From the NCBI RefSeq assembly GCF_009547075.1, contig NZ_WIPH01000001.1, forward strand, positions 186,001 to 250,000: 64,000 nt of DNA, given 5' to 3'. The notes beneath the pieces were generated by a model, which was given only the letters and a program-made list of their open reading frames with translations, did not search any database and was not told the origin of the DNA. This DNA is from Gluconobacter aidae (GTDB lineage: Bacteria; Pseudomonadota; Alphaproteobacteria; Acetobacterales; Acetobacteraceae). A program made the position numbers and the translations under genes. Shown here in pieces: positions 31,440 to 37,667 of this stretch (position 1 is its first letter; each line of letters begins with the position of its first letter).

Positions 31440-33074
31440 TCAGAACGTCATCATCGCACCAGCCGACATGGTGTGATCGCTTTCGTGGGCGCTGCTGTGG
31501 GAATCCGATTCCGTATGGGCATACTCGCCGACGATCGTGAACCAGTCCGTCAGGTTGTAATAGATCGCTCCGACTTCCGACTGGTTGCGCCGGACCATGT
31601 CCGGATTGTCCTCACCAGGCGCCTGATAGAGGTTGCTGACGCCGTAGCTTCCAACAAGCTTGAGCTTGGGCAGGATCTTGTAGGCTGCCTGGACGTAGTA
31701 GCCTTCGGAATCACGCTTGCGTCCATTGGCAGATACGCCATCGAAGAAGATGCCGGTCGTACCAAGGCCACTGCCATAGTAGTAATAGGCCACGCCTTCG
31801 AACGGGCCGCGCGTGACTTTCACGCCAACGTCGCCGGCCTCGACCGTCGTGCCTTTCCGGCTGCTGCTGCCCAGTGTTGAGCTGGTCAGGTTCTGCTGAT
31901 GCTGGACGAGGAAGCTGCTCCAAAAGCGGGTCGTGAAGCCGAGAATATTGCCATCATAGGTGACTTTGCCCTGAAGCATGGGCGAACTGTGCTGGGTCGT
32001 GGTCGCGGACAGGCCGCCACCGGCAAAATTGTATTCATCCAGCGGCGTCATGACACCGACGGACGCCTGAAAACCCTTCCATTTCGGCGAGATATAGGTG
32101 ATTTGCGGCAACCAGTCGGTATAGACATAGCCCACGCCGATACGACCGAGTGACGTGTTGGCGGGATTGGCGTTGCTGCCGGTACTGCCGACGCTGAGGA
32201 GTGTGGCATCGTTCAGGATGGCGTCAGACGCAAACAGCGCAATGTCGCGACCCAGCTTGACCGTACCGAACTTGTCCGTGCCAGCGGTCATGTAAACCTG
32301 ACGGAAATCGAGGCCGGCCGTTCCGAGGCCCACCGGACTGCCGCCCGAATTGGCGTTGAAGGTACTGGGATTGTTGTTGTTGATGCCGGGATACATGCCG
32401 AAGACGGCGCCGAGCTTGATCCCGTCCTGAACCGTATTCAGCTTGAGGATCAGGCCGCCCGGCAGCAGGCCGTTACGAACGGATGAGGAATCAAAGCCGC
32501 TGCTGCCGGTCGAGACGCCACCAGCAACAGCGCGACCACCGGCTGGGCTGTTATAGGTGTAGTAGGCGTTGACGAAGCCCGAGATGTTGATGTCGATCTG
32601 GCCAGCCTGGATCGTAACGCCTTTGCCCGCGACATAGGGCTTCACGCGCACGATGCTGTCCGGATTGTAGGTGCGTCGCGCTTCCAGAAGCGAATTGCGG
32701 GCATCCTGGGCACTGGCCGACGCCTCCATGGCGGCACGGCGCGCTGCGGAAACGGCAGCAACGGTCGTGACATCGGGGGGGGCCTCGAGGCTGCTGCCTT
32801 CATTCTGGGGCCCATAGCGCATGTAGCGGTTGCGGTGACGGGACCGAGCAGCAGGGGCGCTGTCATCGTCGCGCTGTAGGGAAGGATGCGAGTGATGCTG
32901 ATGATGGGCCAGCAGAACATTGTATTCCGTGCTGGTCAGGCTGCCCTTGGCCCGGAGAATGTCGAGCAGTTCCGTATAATCATCTGCCCGTGCCACATTC
33001 GGAAGGATGGAGAGTGCAGCAATGCAGAATGTGCTTCCCAGGAGACTCAGGCGGCACAGGGACATAGATGGCAT
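31440..33074 (-). CDS. Outer-membrane beta-barrel porin
   Basis: About 544 residues with an ATG at 33074 (GGAG about 10 bases upstream), a signal peptide ending at N-V-A-R-A and a helical, histidine- and alanine-rich lead (AHHQHHSHPS, EASASAQDARNSLLEARR). The remainder alternates as beta strands with glycine/asparagine/serine-rich loops (FVNAYYTYNS, GLDFRQVYMTAG, KLGRDIALFASD), and it ends in phenylalanine (SAGAMMTF), the usual porin finish. The GRDIALF segment is seen in Gram-negative trimeric porins. Cargo is unknown. It is divergent from the POT transporter, with a 577-base intergenic region between them. Confidence 0.85.
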   Translation of the reverse strand: MPSMSLCRLSLLGSTFCIAALSILPNVARADDYTELLDILRAKGSLTSTEYNVLLAHHQHHSHPSLQRDDDSAPAARSRHRNRYMRYGPQNEGSSLEAPPDVTTVAAVSAARRAAMEASASAQDARNSLLEARRTYNPDSIVRVKPYVAGKGVTIQAGQIDINISGFVNAYYTYNSPAGGRAVAGGVSTGSSGFDSSSVRNGLLPGGLILKLNTVQDGIKLGAVFGMYPGINNNNPSTFNANSGGSPVGLGTAGLDFRQVYMTAGTDKFGTVKLGRDIALFASDAILNDATLLSVGSTGSNANPANTSLGRIGVGYVYTDWLPQITYISPKWKGFQASVGVMTPLDEYNFAGGGLSATTTQHSSPMLQGKVTYDGNILGFTTRFWSSFLVQHQQNLTSSTLGSSSRKGTTVEAGDVGVKVTRGPFEGVAYYYYGSGLGTTGIFFDGVSANGRKRDSEGYYVQAAYKILPKLKLVGSYGVSNLYQAPGEDNPDMVRRNQSEVGAIYYNLTDWFTIVGEYAHTESDSHSSAHESDHTMSAGAMMTF

Positions 33075-33651
33075 AAACAGCCGCTCCCGCGGATACACCG
33101 GTGCGCGCAATGCGGGCGCTCACCGATAGAATGGACTACAATGCTTTTCCTAGCGCGAATGGAGACATCCTTCGCAACAATAGGATGTGTTCTCACGAAA
33201 ACGTCAGAAATTCAAGATTTTCAGATATATTGGTTGGCATAATATATCTTATACGACATTTGTGTGAGCGCGAACCCGGCCCCTGACCTGCGTCCGGATT
33301 TCTCTCCGTCAGATTGCTCTGGAAGCAATAATATCGGCAGTTTTCAGCCATTTTCTGCTTATGGCAAAATGCCATCACCGTTTTGCCCCGGATTTTCCGG
33401 CTTCCAGCAGCTGCTTTCTGATGGATGCAAGGCTTTCCCGTAACGGCAAACCTGGCGTCTGTGGCAAAATGCCAACTTCAGGAATTAGGCCATTTTGCCA
33501 TAGATCGGATGCTGGCTCACCTTGCTGTGGTACTATGGCAAAACGCCACAAATACACTCTATGGCATTTTGCCACTACCTTCTCTCCCCCTTTACCTCAC
33601 CGGCTTTCTCCCTTTACGCAGGTTATCCCGCCCCTGCGCGAATGAGGCCGC
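33075..33651. other. Porin/POT intergenic region without genes
   Basis: This 577-base gap between divergent genes has no convincing ORF. The porin-side third (about 33130-33270) is markedly AT-rich for this genome (for example TGGCATAATATATCTTATACG near 33234-33254), and the POT-side half holds the palindrome array. Short open frames here lack ribosome sites and family likeness. Confidence 0.7.
33361..33575. promoter_or_regulatory. Array of five 13-bp palindromes, TGGCAAAATGCCA type
   Basis: The motif TGGCAAAATGCCA or its complement occurs at 33362-33374 (exact), 33462-33474 (exact), 33488-33500 (GGCCATTTTGCCA, 11 of 13), 33536-33548 (TGGCAAAACGCCA, one change) and 33562-33574 (exact, reverse form). 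The last four fall as two pairs with the same 26-base start-to-start spacing, 48 bases between the inner members. A weaker half-site is at 33381-33387. They lie 80-290 bases before the POT gene and after an AT-rich stretch (33150-33270) that may hold the porin promoter. Repeated palindromic sites of this sort usually bind a dimeric repressor or activator; which one is not known. Confidence 0.75.
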
Positions 33652-35079
33652 ATGACCGAGATCCTTCCTGCTTCCCCTGTTGTCGAACCGTTTTCCGCCG
33701 GAAAACAGCGGGAACTCTGGGGGCATCCCATCGGACTGTGGGTGCTGACGCTGACCGAAGGCTGGGTCGGGTTCTCGCTCTACGGGATGCAGGCCATTCT
33801 GGCCCTGTATCTGACGGACCATCTGCTGCAGCCGGCTCATTCAGGAACCGTTGTGGGTCTCGGGCCGCTTGAGGCGTTTGTTTCGGCCCTTTATGCGCCT
33901 GTGGGACCACGCGCCATGGGCGCAGCCATTACAGGTCTGTTTCTGGCGCTGATTTATGCCACCCCTCTCCTCGGCGGTTTTCTGGCGGACCGCGTCCTCG
34001 GCCAGACACGGACCATCCTCTTGGGCGCCATCCTGATGACAGCGGGCCATTTCCTGATGTCATTTGACTGGAGCTTTGTACTGGCTCTCGGTTTTCTGCT
34101 GGCCGGGCTTGGCATGGCGGGCGGTCTGCGCGCGCAGGTCGGCGCATTGTATGAACTGGGTGACCGGCGGCGTTCGGATGCCTATCAGATCTACATGATG
34201 GGGCTTCAGATCGCCGTCATCGTGTCCCCGCTCCTGTGCGCGAGCCTGGCGCAGATCGAATGGCACTGGGGCTTTCTGGCAGCGGGCCTGGGCATGCTGA
34301 TCGGGCTTGTGGTCTATCTCGTGGGGCGGCGCTGGCTCCCCGCTCCTGCTGTTGCGGTGCGTCGGTCTGAGGCCCCGGCCGCAACCACAAAGCACGCACG
34401 TCCTGCCCTGACGTCGCAGGAAAAGAAGACGACCCTGCTGCTTCTGGCGCTTGTGCCTGTTCTGGCGGTGGGCGCTGTCCCAAACTCGGAAATCTTCGAC
34501 GGCTATCTGCTCTGGGGGCGCGAGCATTTCCAGCTTCGCCTTCTGGGGTACGAAATGCCGGTGAGCGATCTTATTTCCCTGGACGGATTTATCAGCACCC
34601 TGTGCGCCGTGCTGGTACTTTGGTTCTGGAAGGCCTATGCGCGTCGCAGGCCCGATCCGTCGGAGATTTCCAAGGTCGCGCTGGGGACGTTCATTGCAGC
34701 TTTCGGGCCGCTGATGCTGGCTTTGGGATCATGGATCAGTCCGGGTCCCCATGAGGTCAGCCTGTTCTGGGGACTGGCCTTTCATATCATCAATGACATC
34801 GGGTTTTCGATGAATTACGCGATCGGAATGGCGCTTTTTTCGCGTGCCGCTCCCGTGAGCCTGAACACCATTCTGGTCGCCTGCTTCTCGCTCAATCTGT
34901 TTTTGTCCAACCTGCTGATCGGAAAGCTGGCAACGTTGCTGGGACGGATTTCCGACGTCTCGTTCTGGCTGATACATTCAGGAGCTGCGTTTGTGGCAGC
35001 GGCGATCCTGGGCTTCTGTGCCGTGCGTTTCCGGGACCTGCTGGCCCCCGGGAAGCAGACCCTACCGCCCGTGTCTTAA
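33652..35079 (+). CDS. POT/PTR-family peptide-transporter-like MFS protein
   Basis: A 475-residue, 12-14-helix membrane protein. The start GKQRELWGHPIGLWVL matches the opening of proton-dependent oligopeptide transporters, and LLGGFLADRVLGQTRTILLGA is the family motif after helix 2. The ExxER helix-1 motif (usually E-x-x-E-R-F-x-Y-Y-G) is here Glu36-Gly-Trp-Val39-Gly40-Phe, so the second glutamate and the arginine needed for proton coupling are gone. It may move a different substrate or use a different coupling. A GAGG site precedes the ATG. Upstream lies the palindrome array. Confidence 0.84.
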   Translation: MTEILPASPVVEPFSAGKQRELWGHPIGLWVLTLTEGWVGFSLYGMQAILALYLTDHLLQPAHSGTVVGLGPLEAFVSALYAPVGPRAMGAAITGLFLALIYATPLLGGFLADRVLGQTRTILLGAILMTAGHFLMSFDWSFVLALGFLLAGLGMAGGLRAQVGALYELGDRRRSDAYQIYMMGLQIAVIVSPLLCASLAQIEWHWGFLAAGLGMLIGLVVYLVGRRWLPAPAVAVRRSEAPAATTKHARPALTSQEKKTTLLLLALVPVLAVGAVPNSEIFDGYLLWGREHFQLRLLGYEMPVSDLISLDGFISTLCAVLVLWFWKAYARRRPDPSEISKVALGTFIAAFGPLMLALGSWISPGPHEVSLFWGLAFHIINDIGFSMNYAIGMALFSRAAPVSLNTILVACFSLNLFLSNLLIGKLATLLGRISDVSFWLIHSGAAFVAAAILGFCAVRFRDLLAPGKQTLPPVS

Positions 35080-35090
35080 GAAGACCGTGC

Positions 35091-37667
35091 TCAAGAAGAG
35101 GGTGAGACCAGATGACGCATTTCCGGAGCTGATGCCGTTGAGATGGCCTCGCCATCCAAGGTGCGGACGGTGACGGGCGCCAGCAATCCGTCCGCCCTTT
35201 GCTGGCTGCGCTGGATAATGAGACGCTGAACGATGGGATACGCCTTCAGCAGTTTTTCGAACACCGGACGCGGAATGGCGAGCAGATGGCTGAACTGCAG
35301 GGAGCGGACGGTTCCGGGCATGGTCTCGTCGCGGATGACGGAGGCCGCGCCGATCAGGTCTCCGCTTCCGAACAGCAGGTCCCGTTCCGCCAGATTGACT
35401 TCCGCCAGCCCTGCGACCTGCGCATAGACGACGCGCACGCGCTGCCCGCGTTTGAACAGGACTTCCCCAGGCGAGACGAAATGCATGGAGACCTTGCCCG
35501 AAAGCTTCTGAAGTACGCTGTCGGGAACGCCGTTGAAAGCCGGAAAGGCCCTGAGACGCTGCTCGATGCCGCTCTTGAGATTGAAGCGCAGGGGCGCATC
35601 CAGGCGGGCGCGCTGACGTTCGATTTCCCGGTGCAGTTCGCGGTGCAGCTCCTCGGAAATCAGGTTATCCGCTTCGAGTGCGTCATATTCCTCATCCTCC
35701 AGACGCAGGGCGATCTGGCGCAGGATGCGGCTTTCCAGCGCCTCGGAATAGCCGGAATAATGCAGGCGCAGCGTCTCCAGCGCATCGTCCAGAAGCTTGC
35801 GCTGGCGACCGAGTACTTCAGACACGATTTCCGTGATACGCGGGCCAAGCGTCGGCTCCATGCGCTGGCGGATGAAGCGCTGGAGTGATAGCGAAACGAG
35901 ATGCGCGATGATGAGCATCTCGAAGCGCTCCATCATGCAGTTCGTCAGCGGCTCGTCGATATGCAGGCGGCTGTGAAGCTCCTGCGCGATCCGGAAGCGC
36001 AATGAGGGCTGAAGGCGGCGCTTGAGGGCCCGGACATAGCCATAGCGTCCTTCGAGACGCGCCCCGTCTGCCATGGCCTCAGCCGTGCGCAGCAGGGTCT
36101 CCATCACGCGGCGGGAAAGACCCTGAATGCGGAACAGGTCCAGCAGCAGGGAACGCTCCTGATTGGCGATCGTAATCAGGGCGATATTGACGCGGTTGCG
36201 GTCGCTCAGGGCGGATTCGAAATTGTTGGCCGCCCTCTCCTTTTCCGCGCGCCGTTCAAGGCGGCTGATGACGCCGGCGCGGGTCTGCTCACTGAAGCCC
36301 AGTTCCTCGGAAAGCTCCCGTGTGCGTTCCGCAACCTCACCGAGGCCGATGCCGACGATCTGCTGGCGGATGGCCTGATCGATGGGCGACAGTTGATCCA
36401 GCTTGAAGAACAGGACGAGTGCCCGCAGCGTGGTGCCGTTGACCAGAAGCGTGATGAGGACGAAGCCGGTGGCGATGATGCCGACGAAATGGGCAACGGG
36501 GCTGGAAACGCTCTGGTTCTCGGTCACGGCCAGTGCCAGCGCAAGCGTGATGGCGCCACGGATGCCACCCCAGGCCATGGTGGCCTTGAAGGGGTTGGGA
36601 ACGGGCGGCGAGAGCTTCGTGATGGCAAGAAGCGGCAGCATTCCGAAAATCACGGCCGAACGTGCAATCAGTCCCGCGACGCTGGCGATTAGGATCAGTA
36701 CGAAATCCCATTTCGTCATGCCGATCAGCAGCCGGGGCACCAGCATGGCGGCCAGAAGAAACACGAGAGAGCCGGCCCAGAAAACGAGCTGCTCCCACAT
36801 CTCGTTCAGGAAGCGCCAGACCTGCGGCCGGAAAGTCGATGGCCCGTAAGCGGAGACCGTCAGCCCCGCGGCGGCTGTTGCGACCACGCCGGAAAAGCCG
36901 AGCATCTCATCGCACAGGATGTAAACGGCGTAAGGCAGTGCCAGTGTCAGCGTGACTTCGGCAGCCGCTGATCCCCCCAGTCCTGCAATCAGCAGCAATG
37001 TGAGACGCGCCAGACAGACGCCGACCACGATGGCCCCGATGAAGGCGGTGAGGAAGTCCATCAGAGCATCGGTCAGATGGATCTGGTGATGCGAGGTCAC
37101 CGCCGCCAGAAGGATCGAGAAGATCGAAATGGCGGCTGCGTCGTTCAGAAGCGCTTCCCCCTCGACAAGGCGCGTCAGACGCGAAGCCGCACCGATTTCA
37201 CGGAAAATCCCGGCCACGGCGGACGGATCGGTCGTCGCCACGATCGATCCCAGAAGCAGGCAGACGACGAGGCTCTGCCGGGCAAACGGATAAAGCGCGA
37301 AGCCAATGGTGGCGGTCGAAACGATGACAGCGACGACCGCCAGCAGAAGCACGGTTGCCGTTTCATGGGCCAGACGCCGCACATCGATGGCCATGGCTCC
37401 CTGAAACACCAGAACCGGCAGAAAGATCAGCAGGAAGGCTTCGCTGTTGACCGGGAAATAGATCAGCGCCTCGGCCGCCCCGTCCAGCAGATCGGTCGCA
37501 GATGAGCGCACGATAAGGGACGCGACAAGGCCGAGCCCGATCCCGGTCAATGCCAGCAGGACAGCTTCGGAAATCTCGAGCCGTTTCGCGAGGGGCTGGA
37601 TGATGCTGACAAGCGTGAGCAGGAACGCAAGCGCTAGGAGTACGGCTGCCAGTCCTGTCACCATCAT
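35091..37667 (-). CDS. CPA1 sodium/proton antiporter with C-terminal cyclic-nucleotide-binding domain
   Basis: An 858-residue protein. About 12 transmembrane helices fill residues 1-410, with the ion-binding N-D pair in VEGEALLNDAAAISIF and the G-G-I-R-G-A-I-T-L-A-L-A segment in the second half. A long cytoplasmic region of about 300 residues is helical and charged. From about residue 735 a cNMP-binding domain is visible (FNGVPDSVLQKLS, FVSPGEVLFKRGQ, LFGSGDLIGAASVI). The layout resembles plant SOS1-type and some bacterial NhaP-like exchangers controlled by the soluble domain. It is convergent with the POT gene. The first ATG is doubled (37667 and 37664). Confidence 0.9.
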   Translation of the reverse strand: MMVTGLAAVLLALAFLLTLVSIIQPLAKRLEISEAVLLALTGIGLGLVASLIVRSSATDLLDGAAEALIYFPVNSEAFLLIFLPVLVFQGAMAIDVRRLAHETATVLLLAVVAVIVSTATIGFALYPFARQSLVVCLLLGSIVATTDPSAVAGIFREIGAASRLTRLVEGEALLNDAAAISIFSILLAAVTSHHQIHLTDALMDFLTAFIGAIVVGVCLARLTLLLIAGLGGSAAAEVTLTLALPYAVYILCDEMLGFSGVVATAAAGLTVSAYGPSTFRPQVWRFLNEMWEQLVFWAGSLVFLLAAMLVPRLLIGMTKWDFVLILIASVAGLIARSAVIFGMLPLLAITKLSPPVPNPFKATMAWGGIRGAITLALALAVTENQSVSSPVAHFVGIIATGFVLITLLVNGTTLRALVLFFKLDQLSPIDQAIRQQIVGIGLGEVAERTRELSEELGFSEQTRAGVISRLERRAEKERAANNFESALSDRNRVNIALITIANQERSLLLDLFRIQGLSRRVMETLLRTAEAMADGARLEGRYGYVRALKRRLQPSLRFRIAQELHSRLHIDEPLTNCMMERFEMLIIAHLVSLSLQRFIRQRMEPTLGPRITEIVSEVLGRQRKLLDDALETLRLHYSGYSEALESRILRQIALRLEDEEYDALEADNLISEELHRELHREIERQRARLDAPLRFNLKSGIEQRLRAFPAFNGVPDSVLQKLSGKVSMHFVSPGEVLFKRGQRVRVVYAQVAGLAEVNLAERDLLFGSGDLIGAASVIRDETMPGTVRSLQFSHLLAIPRPVFEKLLKAYPIVQRLIIQRSQQRADGLLAPVTVRTLDGEAISTASAPEMRHLVSPSS

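Follow-up and report, generated by a model that had tools for sequence, protein, structure and literature searches.

Sites upstream of the POT-family gene

The locus lies within a 64,000-nucleotide stretch of DNA (the window, i.e., everything that was analysed at this position), where a gene for a POT-family transporter and a divergently transcribed neighbor enclose an intergenic region with five copies of a 13-bp palindrome (Table 1). The transporter is the presumed target gene. Like POT/PTR2 peptide transporters, it has a family-domain match and can be aligned with solved di- and tripeptide transporters; unlike them, it reads TEGWVG in the first membrane segment where 4w6v has SEMWER, and it scores just under the TIGR00924 cut-off (129.4 versus 130.2). 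The family domain thus matches while the ER of the ExxER motif is missing, so peptide symport is not to be assumed for this protein. Convergent to it, at 35091-37667, lies a gene for a Na+/H+ exchanger with a cyclic-nucleotide-binding domain, and similar ORFs are found beside POT in G001, G009, G012, G022, G047 and G050.

Table 1 Features of the intergenic region and its flanking genes, in window coordinates.
Feature	Position	Strand	Match	Distance from POT start and remarks
Divergent gene ("porin" of the preliminary description)	31440..33110	-	no Pfam or NCBIfam match	
Operator 1 (predicted)	33362-33374	.	exact TGGCAAAATGCCA	-290; counterparts in many relatives
Operator 2 (predicted)	33462-33474	.	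exact	-190
Operator 3 (predicted)	33488-33500	.	two arm mismatches	-164; 26 bases after operator 2
Operator 4 (predicted)	33536-33548	.	one mismatch	-116
Operator 5 (predicted)	33562-33574	.	exact, other strand	-90; 26 bases after operator 4
POT-family transporter gene (presumed target)	33652..35079	+	PF00854, E 1.4e-17	

The preliminary description had reported five exact or nearly exact copies, with two pairs at the same 26-base spacing, and this was confirmed, three copies being exact, one having a single mismatch and one two. The first two copies are 100 bases apart (33362 to 33462), the poorest match is that at 33488, which has better-matching counterparts near the same place in several relatives, and a TTTAC box lies 16 bases beyond operator 5. 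The claim that such a set exceeds chance also held. With up to two mismatches allowed, the 64-kb window contains five motif matches, every one of them inside the array, while shuffled windows contained a mean of 1.48 and reached five or more anywhere in only 1 of 100 shuffles. The porin side is AT-rich, as had been noted (GC is 45% over 33111-33361 and 60% in the genes on either side). On that side, at 33238-33255, a near-palindrome, GCATAATATATCTTATAC, overlaps promoter-like matches toward the porin; similar sequences occur upstream of POT in G005, G014, G021 and G023.

It had been considered that the motif might be common at random positions in the genome, and genome-wide counting revealed that exact copies are rare. 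In the 3.0-Mb genome there are four exact copies of the 13-mer, three at the POT array and one before a candidate regulator gene described below, and across the 26 genomes of the genus TGGCAWWWTGCCA has 1-9 copies per genome compared with 0-2 for a reversed control. When up to two mismatches were allowed across the whole genome, the motif was not commoner than its reversed control (26+25 versus 26+21), and the short core TGGC-N5-GCCA was found at 81 genomic places versus 53 for the control. Isolated weak matches therefore mean little, and we counted only strong or conserved matches as evidence. Near-matches on contigs C38 and C64 of the same genome, whose adjoining ORFs gave no link, were treated as incidental. 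In G001, G009, G012 and G022, an additional exact site ~2.3 kb upstream of the array was excluded, as it falls by eye inside a methionyl-tRNA-synthetase-like ORF. Some further sites have no assigned target (those on G001 contig C108 and G022 contig C23, and most of those in G047 and G050).

A POT ortholog is present in 26 of 26 genus genomes, and 25 of them carry three to six sites upstream of it (counted within 330 bp before the start, with at most one arm mismatch per site), for a total of 106 sites versus a mean of 0.9 in shuffles. G005 is the sole exception, with no site in those 330 bp. Thus, the array is conserved beside this gene in relatives, a point on which the preliminary description had made its interpretation depend. 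Site positions vary between species, and spacings of 25-28 bases account for 25 of the 81 intervals between sites. In most genus genomes the proximal site is found at -89 to -95 relative to the POT start (~-110 in G001, G009, G012 and G022), and 23 of 25 genomes have TTTAC 15-19 bases beyond it. Sites also precede POT in two genomes of other genera, G143 and G113 (loci L277 and L278), where five and six sites, respectively, have at most one mismatch, with all of those in G113 and most of those in G143 no more than 300 bp from the start. The array is absent at POT in G047, G050 (which has a single one-mismatch site), G054 and G057, and G254 and G289, whose POT genes are distant, lack sites there.

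Each site can be drawn on paper as a short hairpin, and the short core is common by chance, which would suit palindromes that arose by chance, as a mobile repeat, or as RNA hairpins in which no DNA-binding protein takes part. We consider this highly improbable, since the arrays stay at POT across the genus, and in two further genera, while their positions shift, both orientations of the spacer occur, and the 106 sites far exceed the shuffled mean. Together, these data strongly support a regulatory array at the POT gene.

The porin adjoins POT in 21 of 26 genus loci and was not found beside it in G001, G005, G009, G012 and G022; four of these five loci (all but G005) retain the array, which therefore tracks POT and not the porin. 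The nearest site is ~90 bp from the POT start and ~250 bp from the porin ORF. Of the earlier proposal that a single switch controls porin and transporter, the part concerning the transporter is thus strongly supported, while joint control is not borne out, and the porin probably lies outside the regulon.

The xre gene and the divergent phage-like cluster

The fourth exact copy of the 13-mer lies before a small helix-turn-helix gene, xre (G000:C24:8402-8794), whose 130-residue product, XRE, is of the Cro/CI type (HTH_3 match, E 1.9e-10). XRE is present in 26 of 26 genus genomes and, at E 1e-20, in 30 of 397 family genomes. From 36 named loci we dropped one (L199, a Clostridiales MAG, 37% identity) and retained 35 from seven genera, two of which are metagenome bins. 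All 35 loci have the core TGGC-N5-GCCA at -28 to -30 of XRE, and 33 of them have a second core at -70 to -86. Predicted operators are therefore present at XRE's own promoter and at the divergent phage genes in 35/35 loci. The core is also found 3' of xre in every locus (in two copies in 33).

A possible promoter directed back toward xre has the site 3' of the gene between its TTGAC and its TAAT box. A CtrA-like box, TTAA-N7-TTAATGGC, overlies the second hexamer of this possible promoter and runs into the site in 35/35 loci, and GTCAA (i.e., TTGAC on the other strand) follows the box in 34 of the 35. The CtrA consensus is given as TTAA-N7-TTAA in PMC9437464.

Divergent from XRE, phrog_16492, TerS and TerL genes are found in 35/35 named loci; the other flank carries dnaB in 19 and an RND pump in 16. 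In the genome studied here the cluster spans ~9.2 to 28.3 kb of contig C24 and includes terminase, portal, scaffold, major head protein, tail sheath, baseplate and tail fibre families, in addition to ORFs with no assigned function. When used as queries, 20 of 20 cluster proteins had matches in 9 of 9 further genomes (E 1e-5 or better), mostly near full length, with frames not inspected singly. The terminase is under purifying selection: dN/dS by a simple method was 0.04-0.09 for TerL in ten pairs, with 0.006-0.035 for dnaB in seven pairs, many of the dS values being high or saturated. No integrase or phage replication genes were seen in the ORF list from the dnaB side to ~28.3 kb or among the scanned cluster proteins, several ORFs being matchless. 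The cluster is not a tailocin, since it encodes head and packaging functions (terminase, portal, scaffold and major head families). It resembles a gene transfer agent, to which class we do not assign it, and transfer of DNA by its particle is putative. PMC8566455 describes mitomycin-induced particles with contractile tails in three Gluconobacter strains (heads of 50-59 nm) and one Acidomonas with particle heads of 44 nm.

IMG/VR contains 13 contigs (L334-L346) of 7-22 kb with XRE relatives. The cluster has thus probably already been catalogued as proviruses, if these contigs are, as we assume, the same chromosomal clusters. A pattern scan of viral contigs for paired sites returned 37 stretches. 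The first small ORF divergent from xre (L086:8889-8981, beginning MRQVKSGS) ends after ~30 codons in the genome studied here, and Neokomagataea L184 has a 101-codon ORF at a comparable place.

The distribution of XRE relative to the array speaks on both sides of a link between them. G054 and G057 have neither XRE nor sites at POT, which favors XRE as the array-binding protein. Against it, G047 and G050 have XRE and no array at POT, and G005 has both XRE and the cluster and likewise no array.

Other genes with sites and their possible promoters

Sites also precede genes of lysis, particle and nutrient type. The most widespread case is a two-gene operon encoding a protein with a coiled coil and a membrane segment, followed by a phrog_3108 match, and a site lies ~410-445 bp before that match in 23 of 26 genus genomes (19 in the main scan, then the genome studied here, G013, G020 and G021). 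No site was found at this operon in G005, G018 (where two of three copies were read) or G025, nor at nine further phrog_3108 copies elsewhere in the genus. Operons of this type with a site also occur in G047 and, as judged by sequence only, in G102. The phrog_3108 protein has no Pfam match, and the predicted structure of a homolog from a viral contig was uninformative (mean pLDDT 45.6). Given the look of the sequence, the operator and the neighbors, our guess is a putative lysis operon. A phage lysozyme gene bears a site in G001, G009 and G113; the copy in G022, which is shortened, lacks one. In G006, a site lies 197 bp upstream of a gene whose product matches a tail protein over the C-terminal 66 residues.

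A TTGCCA-16-TATACT match reads into the phage genes, and an operator arm forms its -35 element. The promoter scan here gave one match compared with 1.0 in shuffles, so this match is suggestive only. In the genome studied here, the site at the phrog_3108 operon lies, by eye, directly after TTGATA-17-TATATT. The placement of the operators at the xre and phage genes and at the phrog_3108 operon suggestively fits repression. Against this reading for XRE at POT, the promoter scan toward POT called none. In L023 (1501-1600), a hairpin and a T run directly follow the phrog_3108-operon operator, as if read-through were also controlled.

Outside Gluconobacter, GH32 genes carry a site in G033, G149, G212, G254 and G319 (five Asaia or Swaminathania genomes; identity by Pfam scan for G033 and G212, the other three being alike by sequence), and a TGGCA-N3-TGCCA site lies upstream of a GH68 gene in Tanticharoenia (G113; L294:1501-2946). 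These sucrose-hydrolase genes may belong to the same target set. In the Asaia locus L282 (1501-3012), an exact motif copy lies ~85 bp before the GH32 gene. The sites at GH32 and GH68 genes suggest a nutrient theme and would suit another conserved regulator, perhaps one responsive to nutrients, which binds the motif and has xre, the particle genes, POT and the sucrose hydrolases as its targets. We regard this alternative as unlikely: nowhere are the sites as constant as at xre itself, as expected for an autoregulator, and no second regulator gene with sites was noticed in an incidental look, short of a systematic survey.

The RND pump was rejected as a target in Gluconobacter, as 20 of 25 scanned RND loci had no sites within 700 bp (only 206 bp upstream was available in the scan for the copy of the genome studied here). 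Four Neokomagataea-type loci carry both sites, and one other has a single one-mismatch site at -684. In L184 (6857-12390), an RND efflux operon lies beside xre; in most Gluconobacter the RND gene sits elsewhere with no proper sites. Part of the target set is therefore not constant, which counts against the XRE reading.

Proposed regulation and relation to known systems

The interpretation we favor, with a probability of roughly 0.7, is that XRE, a CI-like repressor of the domesticated particle cluster, binds the array and represses POT. The five sites would be operators of this Cro/CI-type protein, which is encoded elsewhere in the genome, divergent to the domesticated contractile-tailed phage-like cluster, its own promoter region bearing such sites as well. 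XRE on the array would repress POT, and POT would as a consequence be switched together with the particle genes and the putative lysis operon, all of them kept off by XRE and jointly released. An ordinary cell transporter thus appears to have come under the switch of a domesticated virus. From the sequences we infer the identity of XRE as the protein on the array, its action as a repressor, the movement of DNA by the particle and the reason for POT's place in the target set. The preliminary description knew of no described regulator for this site in acetic acid bacteria; XRE can now be proposed as the candidate, and no account of this regulon was found in the accessible literature on acetic acid bacteria prophages and gene transfer agents, which covers few subscription journals. 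A literature match to the motif sequence concerned human glioblastoma only.

XRE could instead bind the array and activate POT, or the sites could mainly titrate the repressor and so determine at what threshold the particle switch acts. An array with up to six sites in ~200 bp exceeds the needs of simple repression, and such a role would suit a gene for which no promoter was called. We nevertheless give this a low probability, below that of another regulator, because the proximal site keeps much the same distance from POT, with TTTAC behind it in 23 of 25 genomes, as if it overlapped a promoter, and because the operators at xre and the phrog_3108 operon appear placed to block polymerase.

A broader and more tentative picture can be drawn, one that we hold to be possible and less likely than not to be right in full: an undescribed contractile GTA-like particle of acetic acid bacteria with a bistable XRE switch, input from the cell cycle, and nutrient genes taken in lineage by lineage. 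Through the site in the back-pointing promoter 3' of its gene, XRE would silence its own antisense RNA, and this promoter together with the CtrA-like box could, speculatively, make the switch bistable. POT would have been taken into the XRE set in Gluconobacter, Neokomagataea, Tanticharoenia and Brytella, and the sucrose hydrolases in Asaia, Swaminathania and Tanticharoenia. Nutrient uptake would then be part of one programme with the release of particles. If true, the favored reading would mean that, for a conserved phage-like particle of acetic acid bacteria used in industry, operator, candidate regulator and target set can all be named, and it would be an example of ordinary nutrient genes captured by a phage-type repressor. 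The array would also be a ready handle on the inducing signal and on the question of DNA transfer by the particle.

The XRE system would work like that of a CI-type repressor. As in CI/Cro-type phage repressors (RstR, DicA, lambda CI), a small HTH_3 protein is encoded divergently to phage genes with sites between them, and XRE weakly matches phage repressor PHROGs as well as the RstR and DicA models. Repression of a host gene is a further property of lambda CI. Unlike these repressors, XRE falls below the RstR and DicA cut-offs, has no close phage relative (its closest phage matches are weak, seven Bacillus phage records at 42% over half the protein), is kept across whole genera and has sites at several remote loci.

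The cluster itself is close in part to the Komagataeibacter phages phiKX1 and phiKX2: its major head protein is 67% identical to theirs, and 15 of 20 cluster proteins match within 41 kb of phiKX1. In contrast, five cluster proteins, including TerS and TerL, have no match in those 41 kb, which contain only three isolated one-mismatch sites.

PMC9662315 gives background on gene transfer agents, and their control by CtrA is described in PMC9437464. The present system shares with RcGTA of Rhodobacter and BaGTA of Bartonella a structural cluster that is conserved and under purifying selection, putative lysis genes located elsewhere, and a CtrA-like box at the regulator. It differs from both in its contractile-tail type, as indicated by the sheath and baseplate genes, in its candidate control by XRE, and in a DNA transfer that is putative.
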